IMG/VR virus record: IMGVR_UViG_3300032242_002579
Location: 1-25,440 of that record
Reading direction: 5' to 3' (one strand)
Length of the DNA: 25,440 bases
Origin: a virus
Shown: piece by piece, positions 3,543 through 22,673 of the stretch
How positions within the stretch are numbered: position 1 is the first letter of the stretch
How the letters are laid out: every line of letters begins with the position of its first letter
Translations under genes and position numbers: made by a program
Notes under the pieces: generated by a model
Told to the model about the DNA's origin: nothing
The model's input: only the letters and a program-made list of their open reading frames with translations
Database searches by the model: none

Positions 3543-3565
3543 AATAATTTAACTATATTTACAAA

Positions 3566-4566: not shown

Positions 4567-4570
4567 GTTT

Positions 4571-4610
4571 TGTAACATAATAGATTCTAATATCTATTAA
4601 TTAAGTTACA
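4571..4610 (+). promoter_or_regulatory. Nested inverted repeat upstream of the terminase gene
   Basis: The 45-base gap before the terminase gene holds an inner hairpin of 8 bp (4578-4585 with 4592-4599, loop of 6) nested in an outer pair TGTAAC/GTTACA (4571-4576 with 4605-4610). The structure ends one base before the ATG at 4612. There is no T-tract, so it is not a standard terminator; it may shape translation initiation or act as an operator. An ATATCTAT sequence inside it (4590-4597) differs by one base from the recurrent box described elsewhere. Confidence 0.4.
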
Positions 4611-4611
4611 T

Positions 4612-7596: not shown

Positions 7597-7597
7597 T

Positions 7598-7605
7598 ATA
7601 TTTAT
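7598..7605 (+). promoter_or_regulatory. ATATTTAT box upstream of the portal gene
   Basis: An exact copy of the recurrent ATATTTAT element in the 33-base gap between terminase and portal, ending 24 bases before the portal ATG. No Shine-Dalgarno sequence is seen between box and start. Interpretation as a late promoter element rests on recurrence, not on experiment. Confidence 0.45.
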
Positions 7606-7629
7606 AAACAAGTTAGTTAATAATTTAAA

Positions 7630-10600
7630 ATGGCAATAGATACCAGTCTTTACGGAAGACTTCAAAGACTTTTTGGAACAAGTGTTATAATCAGGAATGT
7701 TGGCGGAAACCAATTAAAAGCAATTGATTTAGACAATGTTCAATCATACGGTAATAAACAATCTAACGGATTAATGGATAAGTATGGCAGAATACATTCT
7801 GTTCATTACGCATCCTTATATGATTACCCATCAAATTATTCTACATTAAAGCCACAGTTGTATCGTGATTACGAAACAATGGATACTGATGCCATCATTA
7901 GCTCAGCTCTCGACGTACTGTCAGATGAGTGTTTAGGTGGCAATACTATTATTCCGTTATTAAACGGCAAGAAAAAAACAATAGAAGAACTATATAAAGA
8001 AAGTGCAACTAATTTTTGGTTATATGGTCTAAATAAGTCCACATTAATGTTTGAACCTGTACAAGCTGAGAAAGTGGCTTATAATGGAAAAAAACAAGTA
8101 TACGCCATTACTTTTGATGATGGAACTATTATTGAAGCAACTTCTAATCATATTTGGATAACCTCTGATGGAAATGAATTGACAACTTCTGAACTAACGA
8201 AAGGTTCATCTATATTAGCTCTTCCAACTAGATTATCAGATAACCAAACAATGAAAGGGTATGAACAAATTTGGGATGGAAAATCATTTAAATATGTTCA
8301 TAGAATTATTGGAAATTGCATCCAACACCTTGTTGAGCAAAAAAATAATTTACCAGATGATAAAACCAAGGTTATACATCATTCTTCTTTTGATAAATTA
8401 AATAATGATCCAGATTATTTAATTTGGATGGGTTGGTCTGATCATAATCGAGTACATTCTAATTTTAACAAAAATTTGTGGAAGGGAATAAATTCAGATC
8501 AAGAAAAAAAGAATATTTTTATAAAAAAAGTATTAGATGGTCAAAAAAAATATTGGGATAGTGTAGATAGGGTTGCTCTTAGTTTAAAATTGTCAGAAAA
8601 AAGAAAAGAAGTTTTTTCAAAAATGACAGATGATGAAAAAAAACTAAAATATGGAAAGCCAGGAATTTTAAATAATATGTTTGGCAATGGACATAAGTTA
8701 GTTGGTGATAAAAATGGAAGATATGATAAAATTTCAAATAGAATTGAAAATATTGATATAGAAAAAATTATTCTTGAAATAGCTGCAAACCCTCATCCAA
8801 AAATTTTAGAAGATATAAGATTAAAAAATGGATTCTGTAAGTTTGAATGGAGAAAAGTTAAATCAAAACTATATGCTAGATATAAAGAGACCACTCACAA
8901 ACCTTTAATAAATAAAATTTTAGTAGAAAACAGTACTGATATAGTAATATCATTTAGAACTTTTTGTTTAAATAACTATAAAGAAGGAAATAGATTTATT
9001 GTTAAGCAATATTGTACAGAAAAAAATATTTCTATTAGACATTTAAGGCGAGTAATATTAAATTTGGGTTATTCTTCATTAGAAAATTTTGCAACATCTA
9101 AAAACCATAGAATTGTAAAAATAGAAAAGAAAGGAATAGTAGATGTGTATGATATTGTAAATGCAGGAGAAAATCACATTTATGCAATAGAAGCGAAAGA
9201 TGGTTCAAAGATTTATACTCATAATTGTACACTTAAAAATGAGAACCGGGAAATACTTCAAATAAGAAGTTCTGATGATAAAATACAAGCTATACTTTAT
9301 AATTTATTTTACGATATTCTAAATCTTGAGTATACATTATGGCCATGGATTCGAAATATGTGTAAATATGGTGATCACTATGTTTACTTACGTATTAAAG
9401 AGGGATATGGTATCTATAATGTTCTTCCTATGCCTCCTCATGATATCAATAGACACGAAGGAGAGAATCCAGAAAAGCCTGATGAAGTATTTTTTACTTT
9501 AGGACCAGATGGTCAAGGTTCAGGAGTTCAATATAATAAGGATTTAAAGAATAGATACGAGAATTTTGAGATTGCTCACTTTAGATTACTTAGTGATACT
9601 CGTTATTTACCTTATGGTAGGGCATATATTGAACCTGCTAGGAAGATATATAAGCAATTAAGTCTTATGGAAGAGGCTATGATGATACATCGTATCATGA
9701 GAGCTCCTGAAAAGCGTGTATTTTATATAAATATTGGAGCTATTCCTCCTAATGAGGTTGAACAGTTTATGAAAAAGACTGTAGATAAGATGAAGAAGAC
9801 ACCATTTGTGGATCCACAGACAGGTGAATACAATCTTAAGTACAACATGATGAATGCTTTGGAGGATTTCTATATACCAGTTCGTGGTGGAGACGCTACT
9901 ACTAGGATAGATACTGCTAAAGGATTAGAATATAATGCTATAGAAGACGTTAATTACTTAAGGGACAAGCTGTTAGCATCATTAAAGATACCTAAAGCGT
10001 TCTTCGGTTATGAGAAAGATTTATCTGGAAAATCAACACTTGCTGCGGAAGACATTCGATTTGGTCGCACGATTCAAAGATTACAAAGTATTGTTGTTAG
10101 CGAGCTTACTCGTATAGCATTAATACATTTATATGTTCAAGGATATACGGATGAGAGGCTTACAAACTTTGAATTAAGTCTTACTACCCCATCAATTATA
10201 TATGAGCAAGAGAAGATAGCTCTTTGGAAAGAGAAAGTATCCCTTGCACAAGATCTTGTTGCTAGTAATCTAGTATCATCTGATTGGATATATGACAGGA
10301 TATTTGAATTCAGTGAGGATCAAGTATCAGAAATGCGGGATTTAATTGCTGAAGATAAGAAAAGAATATTTAGACTTACTCAGATTGAAAATGAGGGTAA
10401 CGATCCATCCGAATCAGGTGAATCATACGGAACTCCTCATGATCTAGCTTCATTATATGGTCGTGATCGTTTAAAAGATGGAGGATTGCCTGATGGATTT
10501 GATGAAACAAAAGTAGTAGGTAGACCTAAAGAAAAAAGTTCTATATATGGAACCCAGGATAGTGCATTTGGAAGAGATGCTATTGGAAAAAAAGAAATGA

Positions 10601-10755
10601 ATGCTCCTATGGATAGTAATCCACTTAGACATAATTTTAGAGGAGGATCACCACTTAGTCTTAAAGAAAAAAAAGAAATTAATATATTTCTAGGAAAAGG
10701 TGGTAAAGAAAACGAAAAAGATTTATTGTCTGAGTCGAATATTAAGGATTTATAG
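7630..10755 (+). CDS. Portal vertex protein (T4 gp20-like) interrupted by an intein
   Basis: The portal forms the DNA-entry vertex, nucleates prohead assembly and is the docking site for terminase. The 1041-codon frame carries a 432-residue intein (residues 101-532); the spliced protein would be 609 residues, against 524 for T4 gp20. The C-terminal extein contains stretches recognisable from gp20, notably IMRAPEKRVFYINIGAIPP, then the DTAKGLEYNAIEDVNYLRDK region and LKIPKAFFGYE. The splice junction joins LDVLSDE to CTLKNENREIL, a natural portal sequence. The last 100 or so residues are a polar Gly/Lys/Asp-rich tail, probably disordered and longer than in T4. Its start follows an A/T-rich leader and an ATATTTAT box. 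Confidence 0.95.
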   Translation: MAIDTSLYGRLQRLFGTSVIIRNVGGNQLKAIDLDNVQSYGNKQSNGLMDKYGRIHSVHYASLYDYPSNYSTLKPQLYRDYETMDTDAIISSALDVLSDECLGGNTIIPLLNGKKKTIEELYKESATNFWLYGLNKSTLMFEPVQAEKVAYNGKKQVYAITFDDGTIIEATSNHIWITSDGNELTTSELTKGSSILALPTRLSDNQTMKGYEQIWDGKSFKYVHRIIGNCIQHLVEQKNNLPDDKTKVIHHSSFDKLNNDPDYLIWMGWSDHNRVHSNFNKNLWKGINSDQEKKNIFIKKVLDGQKKYWDSVDRVALSLKLSEKRKEVFSKMTDDEKKLKYGKPGILNNMFGNGHKLVGDKNGRYDKISNRIENIDIEKIILEIAANPHPKILEDIRLKNGFCKFEWRKVKSKLYARYKETTHKPLINKILVENSTDIVISFRTFCLNNYKEGNRFIVKQYCTEKNISIRHLRRVILNLGYSSLENFATSKNHRIVKIEKKGIVDVYDIVNAGENHIYAIEAKDGSKIYTHNCTLKNENREILQIRSSDDKIQAILYNLFYDILNLEYTLWPWIRNMCKYGDHYVYLRIKEGYGIYNVLPMPPHDINRHEGENPEKPDEVFFTLGPDGQGSGVQYNKDLKNRYENFEIAHFRLLSDTRYLPYGRAYIEPARKIYKQLSLMEEAMMIHRIMRAPEKRVFYINIGAIPPNEVEQFMKKTVDKMKKTPFVDPQTGEYNLKYNMMNALEDFYIPVRGGDATTRIDTAKGLEYNAIEDVNYLRDKLLASLKIPKAFFGYEKDLSGKSTLAAEDIRFGRTIQRLQSIVVSELTRIALIHLYVQGYTDERLTNFELSLTTPSIIYEQEKIALWKEKVSLAQDLVASNLVSSDWIYDRIFEFSEDQVSEMRDLIAEDKKRIFRLTQIENEGNDPSESGESYGTPHDLASLYGRDRLKDGGLPDGFDETKVVGRPKEKSSIYGTQDSAFGRDAIGKKEMNAPMDSNPLRHNFRGGSPLSLKEKKEINIFLGKGGKENEKDLLSESNIKDL
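7930..9225 (+). mobile_element. Intein with HNH homing endonuclease in the portal gene
   Basis: In-frame insertion coding for 432 residues, from Cys101 (CLGGNTIIPLLNGKKKTIEE, block A) to THN at Asn532, followed by Cys533 as +1 nucleophile. Block B is clear as GTIIEATSNHIWIT, and the C-terminal part has VDVYDIV and KIYTHN, giving a canonical His-Asn/Cys junction. The inserted nuclease is of HNH type: IHHSSFDKLNND holds H250, H251, N258 and N259, and a second half reads DHNRVHS with H272 and H276. Downstream, FGNGHKLVGDKNGRYDK resembles a NUMOD3-like DNA-binding segment. No LAGLIDADG motif is seen, so the element is of separate origin from the terminase intein. All key residues look intact. Confidence 0.92.
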
Positions 10756-10764
10756 TATTTATTA

Positions 10765-10787
10765 ATATTTATACGAGAGGTATACCT
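10765..10787 (+). promoter_or_regulatory. ATATTTAT box plus 10-bp palindrome
   Basis: The 38-base gap after the portal gene carries an exact ATATTTAT (10765-10772), 21 bases before the next ATG, followed by the perfect palindrome AGGTATACCT (10778-10787). GAGAGG at 10775-10780 resembles a Shine-Dalgarno sequence but lies 13 bases from the ATG, farther than usual. Confidence 0.4.
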
Positions 10788-10793
10788 AAACTA

Positions 10794-11648
10794 ATGAAAA
10801 TTAAACACAACAAAGTAAAAAATACTGGACTAATATATGAATTGCTAGTTAGACAATTGGCATCAGATATTCTATCTAACAAGGATAGTAAGTCATTTGA
10901 GATCATAAATAAGTACTATAAGAATACTGAGATCTCAAAGGAGTATAAACTGTATAATACTTTAATTCATGCAGGCCAACTTACCGAATCTAAGGCAGAT
11001 GTCTTTATTTCTACGATATTAGAAGTGTCAAAAAGAATAAATAAGACTAAACTTAAGAAAGAAAAGTACAATTTGATCAAAGAAGTTAAAGAAACTTACG
11101 ACGTTGAAAACTTTTTTAAAGCAAAAGTTAATGACTATAAGGTATATGCTTCAATGTATAATCTAATTGAGGCTACTAACTCAAATGAGTTTATTGCACC
11201 TGCTGAAGTTATAGATAACAAGGTAACTTTATTGGAGTTCTTAACTAAAAAAGACATTGATAAGGAAGGTGTACAGAATCAAGTACTTGAAGAGTATGCC
11301 GAAAGTGACAAAGCCACTAAAATAATTGCTTATAAGATTCTTGTAGAGAAGTTTAATAAGAAATACTCTAGTTTAACACCGGATCAAAAGAACGTATTGA
11401 AAGAATATATCAATAATATCTCTAGTACACAGAACTTAAAGGAGTTCTTAAACCAAGAGATACTTAAAGCTGTAAAAATATTATCCGAACTAAAGAAAAC
11501 AGTAAAGGATGAGATAGTAAAAATAAAGTTAACAGAAGTTATAAAAACTGTTGAGCCAATCGATAAGAAGGATTCAGTAAAAGATCACCATGTTCTTGCG
11601 GTATTGCAGTATTATGAATTAATTAAAGAAATTAAATCTATTAAGTAA
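10794..11648 (+). CDS. Conserved helical head-region protein, function unknown
   Basis: A 284-residue, Lys-rich and almost entirely helical protein. The start KNTGLIYELLVRQLASDILS looks like a conserved N-terminal motif; I recall this type of protein next to the portal in related T4-like phages but no defined function. No catalytic motif, signal sequence or membrane segment is visible. The position between portal and protease is where T4 carries small prohead-core genes (67, 68), so a core or portal-associated role is the best guess. The stop codon overlaps the next start by one base. Confidence 0.6.
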   Translation: MKIKHNKVKNTGLIYELLVRQLASDILSNKDSKSFEIINKYYKNTEISKEYKLYNTLIHAGQLTESKADVFISTILEVSKRINKTKLKKEKYNLIKEVKETYDVENFFKAKVNDYKVYASMYNLIEATNSNEFIAPAEVIDNKVTLLEFLTKKDIDKEGVQNQVLEEYAESDKATKIIAYKILVEKFNKKYSSLTPDQKNVLKEYINNISSTQNLKEFLNQEILKAVKILSELKKTVKDEIVKIKLTEVIKTVEPIDKKDSVKDHHVLAVLQYYELIKEIKSIK

Positions 11649-11938
11649 TGAAAGTTGACAAAACCCTATTGAAGGAAGAAGTACTGAATGAGGTTTCTTA
11701 CCGCAGATTTATGCAGGAAGTTACTAAGGTATCAGGTTCTACTAAAAAGAAAAGAGGTCTTGTTCAAATGAAAAAAATGTTGAAGGAGATGGAGGATATG
11801 TACTCACATATTACCCGTCTTGATGAAGCAGATGGTGCAAATGATGGATACTGGGAGAAAAACAGAGGACATCTAATCGAAATCTCAAACAAGATGATCG
11901 ACATGGGTTTAAAAATCAGAAAAATAGGAAAAAAATAA
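11648..11938 (+). CDS. Small helical protein, possible prohead core component
   Basis: A 96-residue charged, helical protein. The N-terminus MKVDKTLLKEEVLNEVSYRR contains LKE and LNE, which fit the (L/I)xE cleavage rule of T4-type prohead proteases, as expected if it is packed in the head and processed. The rest has no recognisable domain. The location between portal and protease and the one-base overlap with the upstream gene support a head-assembly role, without proof. Confidence 0.5.
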   Translation: MKVDKTLLKEEVLNEVSYRRFMQEVTKVSGSTKKKRGLVQMKKMLKEMEDMYSHITRLDEADGANDGYWEKNRGHLIEISNKMIDMGLKIRKIGKK

Positions 11939-11942
11939 TACA

Positions 11943-13316
11943 ATGCAAAATATACAAAAATTATATCAAGATCTACATGAGGGTAAAATCTCTAGAAATC
12001 AATTCTTATTCCAATTAAGAAAAGATAGTAGAATCAATTCTTTCTTTACTAGTGCTAACTCATATGATGAGACAGTTCGTATTCTTAAAAATCGTGGATT
12101 ATTATTTGAGAAACATTTAACTCCTGCTGAAACTAAAAAGAAAGAAAGCATTATTACATCAATGAAAGATACATTCAAGGGACCTGCTCCTGCTATGTAT
12201 GCTATTGCCACTAAGAAAGCTGAAAAATTAGCTGAAGATAATTTAGATGAAGACTATGAAGTATCTATGGCAGAAGATTCATTAGATTCTATTATTCAAG
12301 CGGCCATGAAATTAAAATCTGAGCTAGGTGGACAAGAAGTTAATCTACCGGCTTGGGTACAAGATCATATTACTAATTCTGAAAATTATATTAACCAAGC
12401 AGCTAAGGGATATCATGAAGCTGATGCGGAAATGGAAAATCATGCAGGTGAAGAAAATGAATCAATGTATGAAGCTCGTTTTAAAAAGGGTGAAGATGTT
12501 GGAGAAAAAGGTATGAATTTCAAAAAGATCCAAAAAGATGCTGCTAAACGTTATGGTTCGGAGGAAGCTGGTAAAAGAGTTGCAGGATCTATCTTAAAAA
12601 AAGTACTTAAAAAAGAAGAAATTGGAAGTAACGATCCAGAGACTAGTTACGAAGGACTTAATAATATAAATGAAGCTAAAAATAATCCAAAAGTTGAAAA
12701 GCTTGTTAATGTCATTAATGATATGATAGCAAAAGCTATGGATGAAGATGGAGATCCTATTGGTGTAATAGAGCCGGGTACTACTTATGAAGAGCCATAT
12801 ACATACTTTCCTATTGAGTATAAGAATGGAACTCTTAGAATTACTTCAAAAAGTGTTTATAATAATAAACCTGAAGTTGATGTAATTAGTAGCGAAAATA
12901 TGATGTATGACGGAGTTCCTACATTACAATTAATTGCTAGAATGTATAAGAAGGCTATCAAGAAATCAGGTAATAATCAAGAAATGCCACCAGCACCATC
13001 TCAAGAAGAAACTGATGCTAATCAGGTATATGAGGGTAATTTAAATGAATCTAAAGAACCTACTAAGGGAGCAGATCAAGTAAATCCATATGAGTTAGAG
13101 AAAGGTACATATTATGAACTAGATTGCCAAAAGGATGGTGCAAAAGACACTAAAAAGGCAAAGGCTAAAGCAATAAAGAACCTTAATAAGAACCCTAAGT
13201 ATTACAGCGATCTCTTCTCTAAGAATTATAATGACAACCCAAATACATCTGATCAAATGCAGATAGTAAAAGAGTCATTAAAGAATTTAATTAATGATAT
13301 CTTATCTGAGAAGTAA
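11943..13316 (+). CDS. Prohead core-like multi-segment protein
   Basis: A 457-residue protein made of short segments: an N-terminal helical region (about 1-60, with LYQDLHEGKISRNQF), a segment LPAWVQDHITNSENYINQAA (135-154) of a type I associate with T4-like head-region proteins, a basic helix-rich stretch with MNFKKIQKDAAKRYGSEEAG (191-210), a mixed domain at about 245-345, and a C-terminal part with NPYELEKGTYYELD and KNPKYYSDLF. Acidic linkers join them. No enzyme motif is seen. Position directly before the protease suggests an internal head or core protein, but these segments also occur in proteins of unknown role. The stop overlaps the protease start by one base. Confidence 0.55.
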   Translation: MQNIQKLYQDLHEGKISRNQFLFQLRKDSRINSFFTSANSYDETVRILKNRGLLFEKHLTPAETKKKESIITSMKDTFKGPAPAMYAIATKKAEKLAEDNLDEDYEVSMAEDSLDSIIQAAMKLKSELGGQEVNLPAWVQDHITNSENYINQAAKGYHEADAEMENHAGEENESMYEARFKKGEDVGEKGMNFKKIQKDAAKRYGSEEAGKRVAGSILKKVLKKEEIGSNDPETSYEGLNNINEAKNNPKVEKLVNVINDMIAKAMDEDGDPIGVIEPGTTYEEPYTYFPIEYKNGTLRITSKSVYNNKPEVDVISSENMMYDGVPTLQLIARMYKKAIKKSGNNQEMPPAPSQEETDANQVYEGNLNESKEPTKGADQVNPYELEKGTYYELDCQKDGAKDTKKAKAKAIKNLNKNPKYYSDLFSKNYNDNPNTSDQMQIVKESLKNLINDILSEK

Positions 13317-13921
13317 TGGCTAATTTAATTGTAGAGCATACTAATGATGGTTCATCTTTATTGATGGAAAGCAAAATCATGCCTAATGGTGTTGTTATGA
13401 TATCAGGAAAGATTCATGAGGCTGAAAGGATTAACGGAAACAAAAGAAACTATCCATATGATACTCTTAGAAGAGAAATGGATAATTATATAAATGAATC
13501 CGTTAGGGCTAACAGAGCAATGGGAGAACTAGATCATCCAGAGAGTGCTATTATAAATTTAAACAACGTATCTCATCTTATCAAAAATATTTGGTGGAAA
13601 GATAAAGAAGTTTGGGCAGATATTGAATTACTTGATACTCCTGCAGGAAGAATTGCAATGGCTTTAGTAAAAAGAAATATACCAGTAGGAATTTCTGCCA
13701 GAGGAATGGGATCAGTACAACAAATAGGAGAAGCTGTAGAAGTTCAGGATGATTATTCATTACTTTGCTTTGATTTAGTATCCGTTCCTTCAACTCCGGC
13801 AGCCTATCTATCCCTTAAAGAAGGAATGGGGCATGATGCTTTGTTAAATCCATATGGAAAAATTAATGCCGTTATTACTGATATACTCTGTGGAAAGGGT
13901 TTTTGCTCTTGTCAAGTATAA
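13316..13921 (+). CDS. Prohead core protease (T4 gp21-like)
   Basis: A 201-residue serine protease that cleaves scaffold, core and capsid proteins during head maturation. The catalytic His lies in GELDHPES (H74) and the nucleophile in GISARGMGS (S127), the arrangement of T4 gp21-type peptidases; D153 in CFDLVSVPS is a possible third residue. T4 gp21 has a similar length (212). The C-terminus ends with three close Cys (CGKGFCSC), which I cannot explain. It is the last gene before a strong terminator, and the next two genes code for its main substrates. The enzyme family is well supported by both motifs and by context. Confidence 0.9.
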   Translation: MANLIVEHTNDGSSLLMESKIMPNGVVMISGKIHEAERINGNKRNYPYDTLRREMDNYINESVRANRAMGELDHPESAIINLNNVSHLIKNIWWKDKEVWADIELLDTPAGRIAMALVKRNIPVGISARGMGSVQQIGEAVEVQDDYSLLCFDLVSVPSTPAAYLSLKEGMGHDALLNPYGKINAVITDILCGKGFCSCQV

Positions 13922-13930
13922 AAAAATAAC

Positions 13931-13938
13931 ATATTTAC
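13931..13938 (+). promoter_or_regulatory. ATATTTAC element before the terminator
   Basis: A one-base variant of the recurrent box, directly after the protease gene and before the terminator hairpin. The identical octamer with the same flank, ATATTTACAAAA, occurs at 3555. Because a terminator follows at once, promoter function here is doubtful. Confidence 0.2.
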
Positions 13939-13947
13939 AAAAAAATT

Positions 13948-13978
13948 AGCTACTTTCAAAAAAAAAGTAGCTTTTTTT
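13948..13978 (+). terminator. Rho-independent terminator after the protease gene
   Basis: A 9-bp perfect stem (13948-13956, AGCTACTTT, with 13964-13972, AAAGTAGCT), a 7-base A-rich loop, and a run of seven T that starts at the last stem base (13972-13978). It ends the transcript of the packaging and protease genes and separates it from the scaffold-capsid unit. Confidence 0.85.
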
Positions 13979-13988
13979 ATTTTAGGTT

Positions 13989-13996
13989 ATATTTAT
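13989..13996 (+). promoter_or_regulatory. ATATTTAT box, candidate promoter of the scaffold-capsid unit
   Basis: An exact copy of the recurrent element, preceded by T (TATATTTAT), just downstream of the terminator. It lies 101 bases before the scaffold ATG, farther than in other copies, leaving room for a structured leader. This is the only promoter-like site visible for the most strongly expressed genes of the block. Confidence 0.45.
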
Positions 13997-14009
13997 TCTT
14001 GACTACAAT

Positions 14010-14073
14010 ATACTATTTCATATAGTATTAGTTTAAAAAAATAATCTGATTAAGCTTGATATCAATAAGCTTA
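14010..14073 (+). promoter_or_regulatory. Structured leader with two hairpins before the scaffold gene
   Basis: Two hairpins lie between the promoter-like box and the scaffold start. The first pairs ATACTAT (14010-14016) with ATAGTAT (14022-14028) around a 5-base loop. The second pairs TAAGCTT (14051-14057) with AAGCTTA (14067-14073) around a 9-base loop and ends 24 bases before the ATG. Neither has a T-tract. They may stabilise the mRNA or affect ribosome access; this is inference. Confidence 0.4.
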
Positions 14074-14097
14074 CTTCCAAAAAAAAATTTTAGGAAA

Positions 14098-15192
14098 ATG
14101 ACAAATTTATTAAAAGAAGCTATTGCTGAGGCAAAAGAAGTACGTGCTACGGCTTATAGTAATGCAAAACAAGCTCTTGAAGAACAATTTGCTCCACACT
14201 TACAATCAATGATAGCTGCAAAGTTACAAGAGATGGAAAGTGAAGATGAAGAGCATATGGGTACTGGCAAGGACGAAAAGGACATGAATGAAGGTGAGTA
14301 TATGGCTACTGGTGAAGATGAAAAAGACATGAACGAAGGAGAAGAAGACTTTAATTTAGAAGAAATCTTAGCTGAATTGGACATGGAAGAAGCACATGAG
14401 GAGCCAGATGCGGACAATATGGGTGGACCATCTGACCATGATGCTGACAACAAAGAAGAAGATGAGGAGAATGAAATGGGTGAAGAAGGAGAAGAAGGAG
14501 AAGAAATTGGTGAAATGACAGTTCAAGAGTTGAAAGACTTAATTCAACAAATAGTTGATGAAGAAATGGCTGGAGCTGGTGAAAATGAAGAAGGAAAGCC
14601 AGAAGATGAAATGGGTGGAGAAAACTTTGGTCAAGATGTAGCACCTCCTATGGAGAATCCTGCATTAGAAGAAGAAGAAACTATCAACTTAGAAGAATTA
14701 CTTGCCGAACTTTCTATTGAAGAAAGTGATGAAGAATTAGAAGAGGGTAAAACTTATAAGGATGATAAGTTCAAGGAAAAAGGAGAGAAAAAAGGTATGA
14801 AGCCAAGCATGAAACAAGATTCTAAGTATTCTAAGGATTTGAAAGAAGCTTATGCTGTTATCACTTATCTTAAGAAAGAATTAAATGAAATTAATCTTTT
14901 GAACTCTCGTTTGCTTTATGTAAACAAGTTGTTTAAAGAGAATGGTTCTTTAACAGAATCTCAAAAGATCAAAATTGTTAAGTCATTTGACGAAGTATCT
15001 ACTGTAAAAGAAGCTAAGCTTGTTTACAAAACTTTGACAGAAGGTTTAGCTACCAAACGTGCTACTAAAGGAGCATTTTTGAAAGAATCTTTAAGTTTCG
15101 CATCAAAAGCTGCAGGAACTTCTAGCAACAATATTATTGAGGCTAATCCAATCGCAGATCGGTTTAAAGCATTAATTAATTATAACAAGTAA
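14098..15192 (+). CDS. Prohead scaffold protein (T4 gp22-like)
   Basis: I chose the ATG at 14098 (MTNLLKEAIAEAKEVRATA), preceded by AGGA; an in-frame TTG at 14056 lies inside a leader hairpin and is rejected. The 364-residue product is extremely acidic in its middle (Glu/Asp/Met/Gly-rich) with helical ends, as expected of the major scaffolding core protein, which fills the prohead and is later degraded by the protease. N-terminal LKE and IAE fit the (L/I)xE cleavage rule. Related stretches NLEEILAELDMEE and NLEELLAELSIEE occur about 110 residues apart, and a 15-codon tandem repeat lies near residue 54. The gene sits between protease and capsid genes, as gene 22 does in T4. Confidence 0.85.
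   Translation: MTNLLKEAIAEAKEVRATAYSNAKQALEEQFAPHLQSMIAAKLQEMESEDEEHMGTGKDEKDMNEGEYMATGEDEKDMNEGEEDFNLEEILAELDMEEAHEEPDADNMGGPSDHDADNKEEDEENEMGEEGEEGEEIGEMTVQELKDLIQQIVDEEMAGAGENEEGKPEDEMGGENFGQDVAPPMENPALEEEETINLEELLAELSIEESDEELEEGKTYKDDKFKEKGEKKGMKPSMKQDSKYSKDLKEAYAVITYLKKELNEINLLNSRLLYVNKLFKENGSLTESQKIKIVKSFDEVSTVKEAKLVYKTLTEGLATKRATKGAFLKESLSFASKAAGTSSNNIIEANPIADRFKALINYNK
14257..14346 (+). repeat. Tandem 45-base coding repeat in the scaffold gene
   Basis: Two adjacent 15-codon units, MGTGKDEKDMNEGEY (14257-14301) and MATGEDEKDMNEGEE (14302-14346), differ at three residues and at several synonymous positions. They add an acidic stretch to the scaffold and look like an older in-frame duplication. 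Confidence 0.8.
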
Positions 15193-15206
15193 AATTTTTA
15201 AAAAAC

Positions 15207-16841: not shown

Positions 16842-16867
16842 TTGTAAATCAATTAGTTACAAAACTT

Positions 16868-16898
16868 AAGGGGCTCATTCGAGCCCTTTTTGTTTTTT
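16868..16898 (+). terminator. Rho-independent terminator after the capsid gene
   Basis: The stem GGGCTC (16871-16876) with GAGCCC (16881-16886), loop ATTC, can be extended by a G-U and two A-T pairs at the base, and is followed by TTTTTGTTTTTT. It closes the scaffold-capsid transcription unit 27 bases after the capsid stop. Confidence 0.88.
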
Positions 16899-16936
16899 AT
16901 TTTAAAAAATAACTAACCAGTTACTAAAAACTAAGT

Positions 16937-16955
16937 ATATTTATTATTATATTTG
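16937..16955 (+). promoter_or_regulatory. ATATTTAT box and TATATTTG element before the homing endonuclease gene
   Basis: An exact ATATTTAT (16937-16944) is followed at 16948-16955 by TATATTTG, which matches the Bacteroidota -7 promoter pattern TAnnTTTG. The ATG follows 19 bases after the second element. No clear -33 TTG is visible upstream. Either could drive the endonuclease gene independently of the capsid transcript. Confidence 0.45.
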
Positions 16956-16974
16956 TCTCAATAAAAATATAATC

Positions 16975-18459
16975 ATGAATATAAGACCATCAAATATTAA
17001 TCCCAGTGAAAAAGAAAGACTTCTTTGTTTAATTTGCAATACAGAGTTTTTAGATGGGCATAAAAGAAATGCTCACCTTAAAGAAGTACATAGTATTACT
17101 TATGAAGAATATGTTGTAAAACAATATTTTAATAATAATAATCCAATCTGCATGTGTGGATGTAATATTAAGTTAAAGTTTAAACAATTTCTTAATAAAC
17201 CATTTTTTTCAGATTTTACTAAGAATCACTTTCCTAGAAAGGAACATACCCAAGAAGCAAAAGATAAAATTAAACAGGGAACCATTGCCACCATAAGGAA
17301 AAAATATGGTGTTGATAATATCATGGAACTTAAAGAGTATGTTGATAAAATAGCAGAGGTTAAGAAAAAAAGATATGGTGATGCTAATTATAACAATATA
17401 GAAAAGGGTATGAAGACAAATCTTGATAGATATGGATCTAATAATTACAATACTTCAGATTCGGCTAAAGATAAATTCTTAGAAAATAAAGATAAATGTA
17501 GGCTTTGCAAACAACCTGTTAAAACTGCTGGAAATTACTATTGTAGTAGAAACTGTTTGTTGCAGGATAAAAAAGATTTAAAGTTTAGCTCAGTTGCTGA
17601 ACGTGAAATAGCAGATTTTTTAAGATCTAAAGGCTTAAATGTTATTCAGGGAAGTAGAACTATGGGTATAGAAGTTGATATATTACTACCAGATCTTAAC
17701 ATTGCAATAGAATATAATGGAATGTTGTATCATTCAGAATATTATGGCAAGAAACCAAAGAGTTATCATTTAAATAAAACTAAAATTTGTGAAAGTAATG
17801 GGATACAGCTAATTCATATATTTGAAGAAGAATACAAAAAGAAAAAGAAATTACTTTTAAATAAAATATTATATAAATGTTCTGTAGGCGATACAATAAA
17901 GGTTCATGCTAGAAAATGCATCATTAGGGAAGTTAGTTCATTAGAAAGAAATATATTTTTAGAGGAGAATCATATTCAAGGAAAAGATAAAGCTACTATA
18001 TCATTGGGTGCTTATTATCAGGATGAACTGATTGGTGTTTATAGTTTATCTAAACCAAGGGTTGCACTTGGAAGAAAAACTTCAAAAGAAAATGAGTATG
18101 AATTAAGCAGATTTGCAACTAAATCTGGAATTTCTTGCAATGGACTTCTTTCTAAGATGATTAAGTATTCTCAAAAGAACTACATAATAGATAGTCTTTA
18201 TACTTATGCTGATAGAAGATATACATACTTACACGATAATGCTTACTTAAGAGCTGGTTTTATTCAGGAATCTATTACCAAGCCAAATTATTGGTATTTA
18301 AAAAACTATGACACTAGAATCCACAGATTTAATTTTACTAAATCAAAGATTATAAAAATGGGAGGTGATGCGAATAAAACTGAAATTGAAAATATGATTG
18401 AATGGGGTTATGATAGAATTTGGGATTCTGGTAGCATAAAATATATCTACAACAAGTAA
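16975..18459 (+). CDS. Free-standing homing endonuclease, Vsr-like (EDxHD type)
   Basis: A 494-residue protein typical of mobile genes in large phages. The N-terminus carries a C2H2-like zinc finger (C18, C21, H34, H39), a Cys cluster CMCGC near residue 60, and a zinc-ribbon-like group CRLC...YYCSRNC (about 175-194). The nuclease core at about 205-288 has AEREIADFLRSKG, GIEVDILLPDLNIAIEYNG (D235, E246), LYHSE (H253) and YHLNKTKIC (H265), then LIHIFEEEY, the pattern of EDxHD/Vsr-superfamily enzymes. The C-terminal region (about 310-460) with NHIQGKDKA and YELSRFATKSG is a companion domain of this class. It sits alone between the capsid terminator and phoH; genes on both sides are intact. Confidence 0.88.
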   Translation: MNIRPSNINPSEKERLLCLICNTEFLDGHKRNAHLKEVHSITYEEYVVKQYFNNNNPICMCGCNIKLKFKQFLNKPFFSDFTKNHFPRKEHTQEAKDKIKQGTIATIRKKYGVDNIMELKEYVDKIAEVKKKRYGDANYNNIEKGMKTNLDRYGSNNYNTSDSAKDKFLENKDKCRLCKQPVKTAGNYYCSRNCLLQDKKDLKFSSVAEREIADFLRSKGLNVIQGSRTMGIEVDILLPDLNIAIEYNGMLYHSEYYGKKPKSYHLNKTKICESNGIQLIHIFEEEYKKKKKLLLNKILYKCSVGDTIKVHARKCIIREVSSLERNIFLEENHIQGKDKATISLGAYYQDELIGVYSLSKPRVALGRKTSKENEYELSRFATKSGISCNGLLSKMIKYSQKNYIIDSLYTYADRRYTYLHDNAYLRAGFIQESITKPNYWYLKNYDTRIHRFNFTKSKIIKMGGDANKTEIENMIEWGYDRIWDSGSIKYIYNK

Positions 18460-18491
18460 TAATTATTAAACCATCTTTATTGTTTTCTTAG

Positions 18492-18499
18492 ATATTTAT
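18492..18499 (+). promoter_or_regulatory. ATATTTAT box upstream of the PhoH-like gene
   Basis: An exact copy of the recurrent element, ending 32 bases before the ATG in the 72-base gap after the homing endonuclease gene. It would restart transcription for phoH and the neck genes downstream of the mobile gene. The rest of the gap is A/T-rich with no clear terminator. Confidence 0.45.
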
Positions 18500-18531
18500 A
18501 TTGGAATAACGTTTCACTTTAAAACCATTTT

Positions 18532-19197
18532 ATGTTAGAAAATAATTCCGAGCTAAGTATAGCTGAAAGAAAAAGACCAAAGGGAGAAATAAAATTTAAA
18601 ACAACACTAACAGAAGAACAAAAGGAAGCCAAACGGCAAATATATGAAAATAAGGTTGTAGCGTTACACGGAGTTGCCGGAACATCAAAAACATTTGTAG
18701 CAATACATGTTGCTCTTAATATGTTTTTTAAGAAAGAGATTAGTAAGATTTATATACTAAGGCCAGCAGTTTCAATTGAAGATATTGGATTTTTAAAAGG
18801 TTCCGCAGAGGATAAGTTACAGTATTATTTCTTGCCTATTATCCATAATATGTACGAAATGTACGACAAGGTTAAGATTAACAAAATGATTGAGGAGAAG
18901 GACATAGAAATACTTCCACTTGGATTTATCCAGGGAATTACTGTAAAGGATTTTCTTATTGTAGATGAGGCAGAAAATGTTACTCAATTACAGATGAAAA
19001 TGGTCTTATCAAGACTTGGTAAAACTGGAAGGATAGTATTCACAGGTGATACTGATCAGGTTGCATTAAAGGATTATCAAAAATCAGGTTTCAAAAGATT
19101 AATAGACTTAGATGGTCAGATAGAAAATTTTAAAGCAGTTGAGCTTTTAGAAAACTACCGTGATCCATTTGTAAGAAAAATACTTAAAATGTACTAA
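18532..19197 (+). CDS. phoH: PhoH-like ATPase
   Basis: A 221-residue P-loop protein of the PhoH family, which is widespread in phages. Visible motifs are Walker A GVAGTSKT (residues 47-54; Ser at position 52 where Gly is usual), Walker B FLIVDEAEN (141-149, D145/E146), and GDTDQVAL (172-179), the sensor-like GDxxQ motif of the family. The N-terminal 25 residues are charged and variable. The host homologue is an ATPase linked to RNA metabolism; the role in phages is not settled. Here it is followed by a three-base gap and the gp13-like gene, so it is transcribed with neck genes rather than with replication genes. Family assignment is firm. Confidence 0.92.
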   Translation: MLENNSELSIAERKRPKGEIKFKTTLTEEQKEAKRQIYENKVVALHGVAGTSKTFVAIHVALNMFFKKEISKIYILRPAVSIEDIGFLKGSAEDKLQYYFLPIIHNMYEMYDKVKINKMIEEKDIEILPLGFIQGITVKDFLIVDEAENVTQLQMKMVLSRLGKTGRIVFTGDTDQVALKDYQKSGFKRLIDLDGQIENFKAVELLENYRDPFVRKILKMY

Positions 19198-19200
19198 TAA

Positions 19201-20328
19201 ATGGCAGATATTTCCATATATAACGGTTCGAGCTCATTTTCATCTGGACAAACTCCTTTTGGGTTTTATGATACTGATAGCCAGTTCCAATCAGATGCTG
19301 ATAAAGTAGTTAAATTTTGTGCAACAAGACTTGGCTATCCTATAATGGATGTAGAATTACAACCAGTATCTTTTTATTCGGCATTTGAAGAAGCTGTTAA
19401 CGTATATGGAAACGAAGTCTATAATTACAAAATAAGAGAAAATTATATGTCATTAGAAGGATCTTCTACTGGCACCTATTTAAATAATAAAGTACAAGTT
19501 CCATCATTAGGCACCCAAATTCGTATAGCTAATATGTACGGATCAGAGGCTGGTGTGGGAGGTTATACACATTACTATTCAGCATCCATTCAAATAAATG
19601 TAGACCAACAAGTATATGATTTATCAAGCGTTGTTACAGGCTCAATCGAGATTAAAAGAGTTTTCCATGATGCACCACCAGCTATTACAAGATATTTTGA
19701 CCCTTATGCAACAACAGGTTTAGGATTTCAAGGATTGTTAGATAACTTTGGTTTTGGGTCAATGTCACCTTCTGTTAACTTTATGTTAATGCCAGTTTAT
19801 TATGACATGCTCAAAATTCAAGCAATTGAGTTTAATGATCAAGTAAGAAAATCTGGTTATTCTTTTGAAGTAATTGATAATATTTTAAAGATATTCCCTA
19901 GACCTTTATCTTCAACCAATCTTTGGTTTGAATATATTAATACTTCAGAAAGAGATACTGCGTATATTGAAACTTCTGGAAATAAGATAACAAACATATC
20001 GAATGTACCTTATTCTAGTCCCGTATACAGCCAAATTAATCCTATTGGTAAGCAATGGATCTATCAATATACTTTGGCCCTTACAAAGGAAATGCTGGGC
20101 CTTATACGAGGTAAATATTCAACTACTCCAATACCTGGAAATACGGTTAATATAAACTATGCAGATTTATTAAGTGCAGCATCTGCAGAGAAAACAGCTT
20201 TAATTGAAGCTCTTAGAGCTACTCTTGATGATACATCTAGAAAGAATCAATTAGAGAAAAAACAACAAGAAAGTCAATTCTTAAAAGATACTTTGGGTGG
20301 AGTTCCACTTCCTATCTATATTTATTAA
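19201..20328 (+). CDS. Neck / head-completion protein (T4 gp13-like)
   Basis: A 375-residue protein. Residues about 30-75 (VVKFCATRLGYPIMDVELQP and the helical YSAFEEAVNVYGNEVYN) resemble the N-terminal helical region of gp13-like neck proteins of T4-like phages, in which a short segment 'LG.P...V.L' leads to helices that bind the portal ring. The central part is beta-rich with RVFHDAPPAITRYFDPYA, and the C-terminal part holds WIYQYTLALTKEMLGLIRGK and a coiled region ending PLPIYIY. gp13-like proteins bind the filled head under the portal and allow tail joining. The order with gp14- and gp15-like genes downstream supports the call. It is somewhat longer than T4 gp13 (309). Confidence 0.75.
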   Translation: MADISIYNGSSSFSSGQTPFGFYDTDSQFQSDADKVVKFCATRLGYPIMDVELQPVSFYSAFEEAVNVYGNEVYNYKIRENYMSLEGSSTGTYLNNKVQVPSLGTQIRIANMYGSEAGVGGYTHYYSASIQINVDQQVYDLSSVVTGSIEIKRVFHDAPPAITRYFDPYATTGLGFQGLLDNFGFGSMSPSVNFMLMPVYYDMLKIQAIEFNDQVRKSGYSFEVIDNILKIFPRPLSSTNLWFEYINTSERDTAYIETSGNKITNISNVPYSSPVYSQINPIGKQWIYQYTLALTKEMLGLIRGKYSTTPIPGNTVNINYADLLSAASAEKTALIEALRATLDDTSRKNQLEKKQQESQFLKDTLGGVPLPIYIY

Positions 20329-20329
20329 T

Positions 20330-20665
20330 ATGAAGTTATTTAATTTATTATTAGAGTCATTCCAAATGTTCAAAGTTCAATTAATATTGAAAATGGACTC
20401 AGATGCTAATGCTGTTGAAATTTATAATCAATTAAGAGCATTGAGAGGAATTGTTGTTTTAACTTTATTACCTAGTGATGTTTTACATGCCAAATCCCAA
20501 GGAAGATTTCATTATACTTTAGTTAGAATTAAATTTATAGGATTAGGTAGTGCTACAGAAGCTTTAGAGCAAGTCAGGGCAATAGCTTTAAATCCAGGTG
20601 ATATAGAAGGTCTTCGTAATATTATTGTGAGAAACAACACAATTAAGAAAATTAGAAACTACTAA
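20330..20665 (+). CDS. Small protein within the neck operon, function unknown
   Basis: I chose the ATG at 20330, one base after the upstream stop; an in-frame ATG at 20297 would overlap the gp13-like gene. The 111-residue protein has an N-terminus MKLFNLLLESFQMFK and a following alternation of strands and helices (about 17-105) compatible with a small ferredoxin-like fold, but no known family is recognised. The N-terminal LLLE fits the (L/I)xE rule and recalls the capsid N-terminus MNNVQQLLES, so processing in the prohead is conceivable. It is not part of the T4 gene 13-14-15 order. Confidence 0.55.
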   Translation: MKLFNLLLESFQMFKVQLILKMDSDANAVEIYNQLRALRGIVVLTLLPSDVLHAKSQGRFHYTLVRIKFIGLGSATEALEQVRAIALNPGDIEGLRNIIVRNNTIKKIRNY

Positions 20666-20666
20666 G

Positions 20667-21158
20667 ATGGCATTATTCTTTGGTAAAAGAGATATAGGAT
20701 TATTCAACAGCCTTAATAAAGAGCTTCTATCTAATATTATAGAGCAGAAGGTAGGTTATTACAAAATATCTCTAGAGAATAGTGAATCAAATATGTATGG
20801 AGAATCAAAAGGTACTAAAAACTTTTTGGATCCTGTTCTTATTTCTTGTTTAATAACTCCTGGTGATTTTACTATGGAAGACTATAGTGATGTACAAAAC
20901 GTTGGTAGATCAATGTCATTTGCCTTCTTAATGAAAGATTTAGTACAATCTAATGTAGTACCAGATGTAGGAGATATTGTCATGTGGAATGATGATTATT
21001 ATAAAGTAGACAATGTAAATGAGAATCAATACTTGGGAGGAAAAATACCAGAATATCAATACATAGATTATTTGCAGAATTTTGGATCAAGTTTCTCAAT
21101 AACATGTGAATGTCACTTATCTAACCCAGCTAAACTTGGGCTTCAATTGTTGCAATAA
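20667..21158 (+). CDS. Neck protein (T4 gp14-like)
   Basis: A 163-residue, beta-rich protein. The region VPDVGDIVMWNDDYYKVDNV, followed by ENQYLGGKIPEYQY, recalls the strand pattern of gp14-type neck proteins, and the place between gp13- and gp15-like genes fits. T4 gp14 is longer (256), so this version lacks part of the family or is only distantly related. Such proteins join gp13 at the head exit and close the channel. Assignment rests on weak sequence likeness plus strong gene order. The last base overlaps the next start codon. Confidence 0.6.
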   Translation: MALFFGKRDIGLFNSLNKELLSNIIEQKVGYYKISLENSESNMYGESKGTKNFLDPVLISCLITPGDFTMEDYSDVQNVGRSMSFAFLMKDLVQSNVVPDVGDIVMWNDDYYKVDNVNENQYLGGKIPEYQYIDYLQNFGSSFSITCECHLSNPAKLGLQLLQ

Positions 21159-22381
21159 TGGCTAAATTAAAACCACTTGTACCGCAATTACCTAATCTAA
21201 AGAAGGATTACATAACTCCTTTAGATAAAAATGCTAGTACCTATGAGGAGCCTATAAAAACATTAAATCGAGGCAATGAGTTAGCATCTTCAATTAACCA
21301 AGCAGATGCAGATAATCTATCAGTTGGACTTGAAACTATAGATTCAGCAGTAAAATATTATTTTGAAAATAAAATAAGGTCATCTGTTATAATGAATGGG
21401 GAAAGAATAAATGTCCCTATTATGTATGCAACTCCAGAAGCGTGGGATTCTATTCAAAAAAATGGAATGTATCGAGATAAGAATGGTAGGATACTTTCTC
21501 CATTAATTATATTTAAAAGAGGATCATTAGATATTGACAAGACAAAGGGTAATAAATTGGATGGTAATATGATCCATAATTATCATTTATTTAAAACTAA
21601 ATACAATAGAAAAAATCAATATACTCCATTTGGTAGAATAGGAAATGTATCTCAAAATGAAGAATATAAATTAATAGCAGTACCAGATTATGTTACTGTT
21701 AGCTATAATTGCGTTTTAATAACAGATTATATAGAGCAAAATAATAAGATAATCGAAGATATAAACTTTGTATCGGATGCCTATTGGGGAGAACCTAATA
21801 AGTTTAGTTTTAAAGCTAATATATTAAATTATCAACAAGCAATAGATTTATCACTTGGTAATGATCGAGTTGTAAAAACAACATTTACACTTGTAATAAA
21901 TGGATATCTTATTAATAATAACTTAGTAAGACAGATGGCAGGTGTTAAGAAATTTTATTCTAAATCTACTGTATCATTTGGTTTAGAAACTGTTACATTT
22001 GATAATCAAACTAATTATATGAGAGCTGGAGATATACCTAAAACAATTAAACCTGGGCCTGCAAATGCAGGTCCTACTGGACAAATTATTGATGCATATA
22101 CAATAAGTTATCTTAGTACGACTAAACAACAATCTGGTACTTATGTAAACGCAAATACTGTGACATTTTCTGTTGCTAACATGTTAGCTGCTCCATTTGG
22201 ATTTCCTCCTACGGGGGCAGATAATTTTTTATTTTTTATAAATGGTGTTTATGTTCCAAAAACAGCAATTACATCTTTTACTCAAATAGGATCTGACTGC
22301 CAGTTAGTTCTTAATACAACCATATTGGATTATACACTTAAACCAACCTATGAGTTCACAGCCGTAGGTAAATTTTCTTAA
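21158..22381 (+). CDS. Tail sheath stabiliser / terminator (T4 gp15-like) with extra C-terminal domain
   Basis: A 407-residue protein. Residues about 80-270 can be matched by eye to T4 gp15: INVPIMYATPEAWDSI with its IRVPITYAS segment, VSYNCVLITDYIEQNNKII with YELSIFTRYEDDMFQIV, and VVKTTFTLVINGYLINN with RRIEWSLTFEVNGWMYP. gp15 caps the tail tube and sheath and forms the joint to the neck. T4 gp15 has 272 residues; the additional 130 or so here (from about 275) form a separate beta-rich domain (LFFINGVYVPKTAITSF...) with no T4 counterpart that I can see, perhaps a decoration domain. The start overlaps the upstream stop by one base. Confidence 0.75.
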   Translation: MAKLKPLVPQLPNLKKDYITPLDKNASTYEEPIKTLNRGNELASSINQADADNLSVGLETIDSAVKYYFENKIRSSVIMNGERINVPIMYATPEAWDSIQKNGMYRDKNGRILSPLIIFKRGSLDIDKTKGNKLDGNMIHNYHLFKTKYNRKNQYTPFGRIGNVSQNEEYKLIAVPDYVTVSYNCVLITDYIEQNNKIIEDINFVSDAYWGEPNKFSFKANILNYQQAIDLSLGNDRVVKTTFTLVINGYLINNNLVRQMAGVKKFYSKSTVSFGLETVTFDNQTNYMRAGDIPKTIKPGPANAGPTGQIIDAYTISYLSTTKQQSGTYVNANTVTFSVANMLAAPFGFPPTGADNFLFFINGVYVPKTAITSFTQIGSDCQLVLNTTILDYTLKPTYEFTAVGKFS

Positions 22382-22383
22382 TA

Positions 22384-22617
22384 ATGCCTAGATTAGACAT
22401 ATCACAAATAGCGGGATTTTATACATCGGGAACTGATTTAGTTTATAGTGGAAGTTTACTTGTAAGTGGATCAATGACTATCAAACAAACAGGGAATTAT
22501 CCAGACGGTCTTGTTGTATCAGGATCTACTAATACATCTGGTTCTATAACTATTATAGGATATGATACATTTGGTGATAAAAATTCACCAAGTACAATCG
22601 ACTTAGGCTCTTTTTAA
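22384..22617 (+). CDS. Small Gly/Ser/Thr-rich protein, fibre-like
   Basis: A 77-residue protein two bases after the gp15-like gene. The short repeated pattern YSGSLLVSGSMTI / VVSGSTNTSGSITI is like the SGS-rich strands of the fibre gene that follows, so it may be a small fibre-associated or virion surface protein, or a remnant of a larger fibre gene. It has no known domain. It ends before an ATATTTAT box that introduces the long fibre gene. Confidence 0.5.
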   Translation: MPRLDISQIAGFYTSGTDLVYSGSLLVSGSMTIKQTGNYPDGLVVSGSTNTSGSITIIGYDTFGDKNSPSTIDLGSF

Positions 22618-22628
22618 TTCATGTTATG

Positions 22629-22659
22629 ATATTTATATAGAGCAGTACATACTGTTCTA
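22629..22659 (+). promoter_or_regulatory. ATATTTAT box and 9-bp hairpin before the fibre gene
   Basis: An exact ATATTTAT (22629-22636) is followed by a hairpin: TAGAGCAGT (22638-22646) with ACTGTTCTA (22651-22659), loop ACAT, one G-U pair. No T-tract follows, so this is not a standard terminator. If the box is a promoter, the hairpin would lie at or just after the transcript start, where it could protect the 5' end or serve as an operator. Confidence 0.45.
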
Positions 22660-22673
22660 GAATACTCATATAT

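Follow-up and report, generated by a model that had tools for sequence, protein, structure and literature searches.

ATATTTAT, a probable -10-type late-promoter element of T4-like phages related to Flavobacterium phage immuto

The late promoter of phage T4, TATAAATA, is read by gp55 together with gp33 and the clamp gp45. What, then, is the octamer ATATTTAT, which recurs in the gaps between genes of the IMG/VR phage fragment IMGVR_UViG_3300032242_002579 (25,440 bases, ~69% A+T; this whole stretch is called the window here)? The window carries a T4-like head cluster (terminase, portal gp20, prohead protease gp21, major capsid gp23, PhoH and a head-tail adaptor), and the plus strand holds nearly all sizeable open frames of its likely gene set. 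The original prediction, made from the window by itself, took the octamer for a plus-strand late promoter of a new class. From the sequence statistics presented below, we consider it likely that ATATTTAT, extended as TATTTATA, is a -10-type late-promoter element of an immuto-related T4-like lineage, probably read by a divergent sigma factor; the promoter reading by itself is held with more confidence than this combined statement. The box looks like a two-letter variant of the known T4 late-promoter kind, placed before operons of virion genes. Because, phoH and a homing endonuclease excepted, all genes identified in the window are head or packaging genes, late timing was tested on relatives.

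Counted over the whole window, ATATTTAT is unremarkable, with 11 copies on both strands compared with a shuffle mean of 7.7, and with 16 of 100 shuffles reaching 11. The 628 non-coding bases of our own gene set (the intergenic total had been estimated at about 600) hold six plus-strand copies and no minus-strand copy, against 0.34 expected under a first-order Markov model, and none of 20,000 simulations reached six. The signal therefore lies in placement and not in abundance, since the total is ordinary while the non-coding copies far exceed expectation. The six coordinates originally given (7598, 10765, 13989, 16937, 18492 and 22629) are all exact and, as had been claimed, an exact plus-strand copy occupies every gap longer than 30 bases (7597-7629, 10756-10793, 13922-14097, 16842-16974, 18460-18531 and 22618-22673), with the exception already named, gap 4567-4611, which holds the one-mismatch ATATCTAT at 4590. 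Also as described, the distance from the end of the box to the next start is 21-37 bases for five of the six; the sixth, at 13989, is followed by a TTG after 59 bases and by the ATG at 14098 after 101. The list of copies was correct as far as it went, and omitted five further exact ones, at 878, 1881, 1901 and 20318 on the plus strand (which thus carries ten, six of them non-coding) and at 9727 on the minus strand.

The capsid protein of the window is at most 59% identical to those of its best 80 IMG/VR relatives, and among annotated phages Flavobacterium phage immuto stands nearest by capsid (51%), followed by Microcystis phage Mel-JY01 (47%) and, after an uncultured phage record (44%), Rhodothermus phage RM378 (35%). 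When octamers were counted across 560 upstream regions of all 80 relatives, the expected enrichment upstream of genes was borne out: ATATTTAT ranks first, with 328 occurrences versus 39.5 expected under a third-order model, and is strongly one-stranded, its reverse complement occurring 23 times. Dereplication then removed 26 of the 80 loci as near-duplicates, and the remaining 54 were used for the non-coding strand counts, the logo (252 boxes no more than 45 bases from a start), the orthologue-upstream counts, the start-codon spacing and the variants; genes of the relatives were self-called (taking the most upstream ATG, with a minimum length and greedy removal of overlaps), which makes start positions approximate. 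Across these loci, where 889 of 894 genes run forward and 5 reverse, ATATTTAT occurs 312 times forward and 33 times reverse in 46.6 kb of non-coding DNA, and 32 times forward and 25 times reverse in 877 kb of coding DNA. Where the gap upstream of a gene reaches 25 bases or more, an exact box is present in 215 of 412 segments among the relatives, and variants of the box are likewise in excess (CTATTTAT, 17 versus 1.1 expected; ATATGTAT, 8 versus 0.4).

Larger genomes behave in the same way. In four large related records that were fetched whole (G001-G004), ATATTTAT is the top upstream octamer, found in 34, 35, 29 and 33 regions compared with 3, 1, 1 and 4 for its reverse complement. Genomes read on the minus strand have the box on the minus strand too, and, summed over six genomes, 169 near non-coding boxes point the same way as the next gene and 13 the opposite way. 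Immuto carries 31 forward and 4 reverse copies, and in Mel-JY01 the count is 20 versus 2 upstream regions. As a control on the method, the same scan of T4 late DNA ranked TATAAATA first (12 versus 1.5 expected). The reversed word TATTTATA did not serve as a control in an octamer count over 49 records, because it belongs to the extended box. The top upstream word of RM378 (NC_004735, 42.5% GC) is TTATTTAA, with 29 occurrences versus 3.2 expected and 11 of the reverse complement; it lies upstream of the portal gene, the gene preceding terminase, p118 and p119, and not upstream of the RM378 capsid or protease genes, while the shorter core TATTTA also precedes ribonucleotide reductase.

The register of the box points to where transcription would begin. 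Counting from the first base of the box, position +12 is A in 76% and G in 17% of the 252 logo boxes and is never C, and it is a purine at all seven candidate sites of the window and at two of the three intragenic plus-strand copies. In the 54 relatives, start codons fall exactly at +12 (a spacing of 4 bases from the box) in 30 of 266 cases, compared with 3 at spacings of 0-3 and 20 at spacings of 5-8; exact boxes at spacing 4 precede seven terminase homologues, and G001-G004 have 4, 2, 2 and 6 cases of this spacing. Because the purine bias and the start-codon spike both fall exactly 12 bases after the box start, we place the putative transcription start at +12, which would explain the spike as leaderless mRNA and also the scarcity of nearer start codons, since these would lie upstream of the transcript. 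Some late mRNAs are accordingly predicted to be leaderless, including that of the window gene with ATG 20330 behind the box at 20318. In RM378, A is found at +11 to +14 in 90-100% of the 29 TTATTTAA sites, and the TATTTA core with downstream purines appears to be common to the wider group. At 9 of these 29 sites the RM378 box stands 6 bases ahead of the start codon, suggesting very short leaders composed of A only.

The box also prefers particular genes. Genes of G001-G004 were classed from homology to annotated immuto genes, not from expression, and PhoH, glycosyl and queuosine genes count among the replication/metabolism class so defined, PhoH accounting for two of the four members with a box. 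On this assignment, a box lies within 70 bases upstream of 32 of 59 structural or lysis genes versus 4 of 96 replication/metabolism genes (p = 7e-13), and of 27 of 36 versus 3 of 31 when only gaps of at least 25 bases are counted (p = 7e-8); G002 shows the weakest contrast (4/14 versus 2/25). When orthologues of the window genes were followed through the 54 loci and immuto, the box was found upstream of the portal gene in 39 of 45 cases (within 60 bases), of gene 10794 in 41 of 47, of PhoH in 32 of 45, of gene 11943 in 12 of 35 and of gene 22674 in 7 of 19; starts of gp22-like orthologues have a box within 60 bases in only 3 of 32. Runs of five T occur within 20 bases upstream of 55 of the 252 boxes and downstream of 3, and two of the window's boxes, at 13989 and 16937, have a hairpin with a T run ahead of them. 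In many cases, then, the box appears to mark the head of an operon, a pattern that would fit structural operons ended by a terminator, with the next box starting the next operon. In strand bias, late-gene preference, operon-head placement, upstream T runs and inferred start site, the proposed plus-strand late-promoter class withstood comparison with the relatives, as far as sequence can tell. The logo additionally has G at -17 (50%) and is T-rich at -3 to -7; a conserved upstream element was considered there and set aside, the letters being attributed to terminator stems and T runs, an attribution that is itself unproven. Among the upstream regions of loci L009-L088, CCGTAAGG and CCCGTAAG are also one-stranded and strongly enriched (42 and 47 copies versus 0.7 and 1.2 expected) and may represent stem and tetraloop sequences of recurring terminators.

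Which protein would read such a box? A gp55-like sigma gene had been suggested, and a candidate does exist in the lineage. When nine records were searched for Sigma70_r2, a single match exceeded the cut-off (in RM378); four weak ones lie inside open frames of 259-263 amino acids in G001, G002, G004 and a further record, G005, and these form one family. Relatives of this divergent sigma-like protein are encoded by at least 589 stretches in viral contigs, and a 42-member profile of the family matches 19 of 49 records (38 selected by capsid, 8 selected by the sigma itself and the three named phages), including four of the five capsid-selected records longer than 85 kb; the family was discovered in G001, G002, G004 and G005, and these four are not independent of the discovery. 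The profile matches immuto gp118 (YP_010114565), annotated as hypothetical (E 2e-75), a Mel-JY01 protein (E 3e-61) and RM378 p020 (E 7.5e-8). RM378 has two sigma-like genes, the orthodox p144 (phrog_1740) and p020, the latter a weak relative of the divergent family. The predicted structure of the divergent protein has a mean pLDDT (predicted local distance difference test) of 78, and residues 31-132 of the model match region 2 of sigma-E with Z 9.5 and a root-mean-square deviation of 2.5 over 91 residues in the VIA structure comparison, where Z below ~13 can be common for helical models. The top 14 structural matches are sigma factors by title, taking RPSH and RPSB as sigma-H and sigma-B; T4 gp55 is not among the 50 structural matches listed, which is uninformative either way. 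The protein thus probably contains a sigma-70 region 2, an assignment carried by the VIA comparison, each line being weak by itself.

Profile-profile comparison (hhalign) with gp55 scored 23.5, above all 200 column-shuffled controls (maximum 12.7) and the reversed profile (4.0); a standard run of the same comparison gave E 0.0046 and a probability of 7.6%, gp55 being the sole sigma family compared. We propose the protein as gp55-like in role, not as a demonstrated gp55 member. A glutamate racemase retrieved as a PDB sequence match to the sigma alignment (E 0.033) was taken as a chance hit. The clamp families PF09116 and PF02916 were each found in none of 13 records, a result that a diverged gp45-type clamp may escape; PF09116 was positive in all four T4-like phages used as controls, a check made for that family only. 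The annotation of Mel-JY01 lists a clamp loader subunit.

We regard it as reasonably likely that this ~250-residue sigma-like protein reads the box, a pairing drawn from co-occurrence. Reliance on co-occurrence leaves some room for the best-surviving alternative, in which the box is a phage late promoter with another reader, either another phage sigma (RM378 p144, for example) or a non-sigma activator, as might be imagined from the second, orthodox sigma that RM378 carries. This alternative overlaps with the preferred reading and does not exclude it, and we judge it rather unlikely: the divergent protein is the only Sigma70_r2 match in G001, G002, G004 and G005, and the range of its family (immuto, Mel-JY01 and, weakly, RM378) is the same as that of the TATTTA core.

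A further alternative, decidedly improbable, is that the box is a host housekeeping promoter used late (the Bacteroidota sigma-A type, with TAnnTTTG at -7 and TTG at -33), served by the host sigma and a phage activator with no phage sigma. The TATTTA core does resemble the -7 element of the sigma-ABfr promoter (-33 TTTG, -7 TAnnTTTG) as it is described in the accessible part of PMC7366714, where F. johnsoniae is also quoted as reported without a -33 element, and the immuto sequence TATATTTAG with TTG at -24 differs little from the late box. However, a conserved -35 or -33 element is absent from the 252 boxes of the relatives by TTG counts and logo: TTG stands at -24 in 5 of them and anywhere from -26 to -19 in 26, versus 24 in an upstream control window and 4 in a downstream control, and the logo is flat there. 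The T preceding the box is present in only 27%, and the G that closes TAnnTTTG is replaced by A; the box is thus not simply the host -7 site, and the original likening to that site needs amending. Host-type sites form a class of their own in some of the same genomes. In immuto, ATATTTAG lies upstream of annotated genes at 21 places, 17 of them at 60-77 kb among small, mostly unnamed genes, with a TTG at precisely -24 from the box in 18 of the 21, whereas ATATTTAT and CTATTTAT precede terminase, portal, PhoH, sheath, tube, hub, tape measure and other genes, with TTG at -24 in 2 of 18 and 0 of 15, respectively. The former class resembles the host-type -33/-7 arrangement, and its place in the genome suggests early use. 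In regions that lack the box, TTG-N17-22-TAnnTTT[GA] is found in 10 of 49 cases in G001, 15 of 30 in G003 and 8 of 60 in Mel-JY01, with a reversed control of 0; it does not exceed the reversed control in G002 (2/66 versus 1) or G004 (1/23 versus 1). Further upstream words in G003 (L207-L213), which centre on TATTATCTTTATAG and look like TAnnTTTA, may mark a family of early promoters. Mel-JY01 (PP395634), recorded as a Microcystis phage, shares the late box, the divergent sigma and the TTG-TAnnTTT sites with the kin of a Flavobacterium phage, and its stated host deserves checking in this light.

Boxes stand mostly 4-30 bases ahead of start codons, and Bacteroidetes are described as naturally devoid of Shine-Dalgarno sites in the accessible part of PMC6847099, both of which would suit an element acting at the RNA level, as a translation enhancer or an mRNA processing site in the 5' leader. 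We nevertheless think this very unlikely. The box is absent before the orthologues of the operon-internal capsid (0/55) and protease (0/48) genes, and its absence before the capsid gene disfavours a translation signal; a transcription start would account for the purine at +12 and for the few start codons closer than 4 bases, and T runs lie directly upstream. Scarcely credible is the reading of the octamer as T4-type TATAAATA promoters on the minus strand producing antisense late RNA, for which the presence of TATAAATA opposite any ATATTTATA would speak, and which is rejected on the gene-strand agreement given above and on the lack of forward enrichment of TATAAATA in the 80 relatives (25 versus 20.0 expected). 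Chance in AT-rich intergenic DNA, suggested by the base composition and the ordinary whole-window count, is regarded as refuted by the excess over composition-matched expectations, with the reverse complement as internal control.

Several observations weigh against the interpretation of the box as a late promoter read by the divergent sigma. Within the window, the terminase gene has only the one-mismatch box, the exact copies at 878, 1881 and 1901 (+) lie within genes and are unaccounted for, and gene 19201 has no box although 21 of its 32 orthologues do. In the relatives, 17 of 45 portal orthologues also carry the reverse complement of the box; 27 of the 59 late homologues lack a box within 70 bases, only 4 of 14 being boxed in G002; and homologues of unnamed immuto genes (24 of 124 boxed) and genes without an immuto homologue (74 of 513) can be classed as neither late nor early. 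The cases behind the spacing-4 spike are not independent of one another, as the 30 genes come from 25 loci and include 12 orthologues of immuto gene 123578 and the seven terminase genes; the spike is missing from Mel-JY01 and from immuto, which has four starts 1-2 bases past the box. The contrast in upstream TTG also shrinks when a broader window is taken: among the 18 immuto ATATTTAT late boxes, 6 have a TTG anywhere from -26 to -19, and in five genomes 12 of 81 regions have one at 18-23 bases ahead of the box, compared with 8 and 8 for permuted words. As for the sigma, the Sigma70_r2 matches of the family (E 0.009-0.046) are below the Pfam cut-off; Foldseek gave no match at E <= 0.001 (best E 0.042); the C-terminal domain alone matches sigma region 4 (Z 5.8, 5.4 and 5.0) in a tie with signal-recognition-particle and other helical proteins; and no phrog_234 (gp55 family) match is listed for four members at E <= 1, with filters that drop most matches above 0.1. 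The family is present in all eight sigma-selected records and in 8 of the 38 capsid-selected ones, most of which are fragments; the 42-member profile does not find it in G003 (128 kb), and the gene is absent from the 25-kb window record.

If the preferred reading is correct, host RNA polymerase, presumably of the Bacteroidota sigma-ABfr kind and redirected by a phage sigma, would open DNA at TATTTA without contact at -33/-35, begin RNA ~12 bases past the start of the box and then transcribe a structural operon. An intrinsic terminator would often close that operon and the next box would open the next; where an ATG stands exactly at the start site, the mRNA would be leaderless. Early genes would use another, host-type promoter (in immuto, TTG, ~20 bases, TATATTTAG), and the late reader would probably be the divergent ~250-residue protein with sigma region 2 found across the lineage.

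The likeness to T4 noted in the original prediction is real, and it can be read forward instead of as a reverse complement, the extended box TATTTATA being two changes away from TATAAATA. In T4 the late promoter is an 8-bp box that lacks a -35 element, and the late consensus varies slightly among T4 relatives, according to the accessible part of PMC2988020; the box here shares with it the form of one 8-bp AT box in the -10 position, the lack of -35, the AT-rich downstream sequence and the late genes, and also the association with a small divergent phage sigma. It differs in reading TAT-TT-ATA instead of TAT-AA-ATA, and TATAAATA itself is not enriched here, in contrast to the 328 occurrences of ATATTTAT. 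The sigma-like protein is also longer (~250 residues with an extra C-terminal helical domain, compared with 185 for T4 gp55), has no listed phrog_234 match and is accompanied by no detected gp45-type clamp. Aeromonas phage Aeh1 offers another lineage-specific change of the T4 late consensus, which alters -13/-12 in the same partial account (PMC2988020), whereas the box here differs at the fourth and fifth letters of the 8 bp. Relative to the sigma-ABfr promoter, with which it shares the resemblance of TATTTA to the -7 element, the box lacks -33, does not conserve the first T and exchanges G for A, and the host-type element is a separate class in immuto. The late promoter of phage AR9, AACA-6N-TA/G, likewise has a purine start after the element, but is unrelated in sequence, and belongs to a phage with its own multisubunit RNA polymerases and 5' leaders of 26-491 nt, as far as the accessible part of PMC5312081 describes it.

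The Far-T4 phages (Roux et al. 2015), aquatic T4-like phages compared with RM378, possess T4-type capsid, portal, terminase and tail genes, and RM378-related phages occur widely in both freshwater and the sea; no T4 core genes for transcription regulation were detected in them, in the accessible part of that account (PMC4360716). A candidate promoter and a candidate sigma are offered here. Among the open-access articles listed as matches, judged by titles, the beginnings of abstracts and counted words, we found no description of TATTTATA or ATATTTAT as a phage late promoter, nor of the sigma of this lineage. A broader proposal, which we advance only tentatively although it seems to us quite conceivable, is that a T4-like lineage spanning Flavobacterium to Rhodothermus phages has its own late code TATTTA, its own divergent sigma, partly leaderless late mRNAs and no T4-type sliding-clamp coupling. 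If true, the T4 late switch would have been rebuilt for a different host polymerase. The promoter word, the predicted start base and the candidate sigma would make the late programme of such phages directly testable in the isolate immuto, would reveal how the sigma and a -10-only phage promoter change in step where the host polymerase is of another kind, and would aid annotation, since candidate late operons and leaderless genes could be called from sequence.

In the window, six exact plus-strand copies, and possibly a seventh, are predicted to act as late-promoter boxes, each with a purine at +12. The first, at 7598-7605, precedes the portal gene gp20 (7630), with a predicted transcription start at 7610, and the second, at 10765-10772, precedes gene 10794 (predicted start 10777). 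An intrinsic-terminator-like hairpin with a T run lies at 13948-13978 (+; placed by eye from sequence and fold), just 5' of the box at 13989-13996, which precedes the gp22-like and major capsid genes (ATG 14098 or TTG 14056; predicted start 14001); the gp22-like label of gene 14098 comes from its position and from homology to the immuto gene at the same place. A second such hairpin, located in the same way at 16868-16891 (+), lies 3' of the major capsid gene, the 70 bases preceding the next box folding with -18.0 kcal/mol. This box, at 16937-16944 (predicted start 16949), precedes the homing-endonuclease-like gene 16975, for which no orthologue was found among the compared loci. The box at 18492-18499 precedes phoH (18532; predicted start 18504), and that at 22629-22636 precedes gene 22674 (predicted start 22641). 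A possible seventh box, at 20318-20325, overlaps the 3' end of gene 19201-20328 and lies exactly 4 bases 5' of ATG 20330, its predicted start and the spacing over-represented in relatives; no orthologue of the gene at 20330 was found among the compared loci. A weak candidate is the one-mismatch ATATCTAT at 4590-4597 (+) before the terminase gene (4612), a change that is not among the 14 commonest box variants of the relatives.

Other features of the window and its kin were recorded in passing. The box and its reverse complement upstream of portal genes possibly form one palindromic stretch. The copy at 878-885 falls in the 5' end of open frame 864-1439, and ATATTTAC at 3555-3562 stands 3 bases ahead of ATG 3566. 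Two genes look intein-interrupted: terminase (4612-7596), with Intein_splicing over residues 207-638 (under the Pfam cut-off) and LAGLIDADG_3 over 430-513, and portal (7630-10755), with Intein_splicing over residues 108-509 (over the Pfam cut-off). The large homing-endonuclease-like gene at 16975-18459 (phrog_3339, phrog_559), between the capsid gene and phoH, has its own terminator-like hairpin and late box upstream, and this free-standing mobile gene thus seems to be wired into the late programme.

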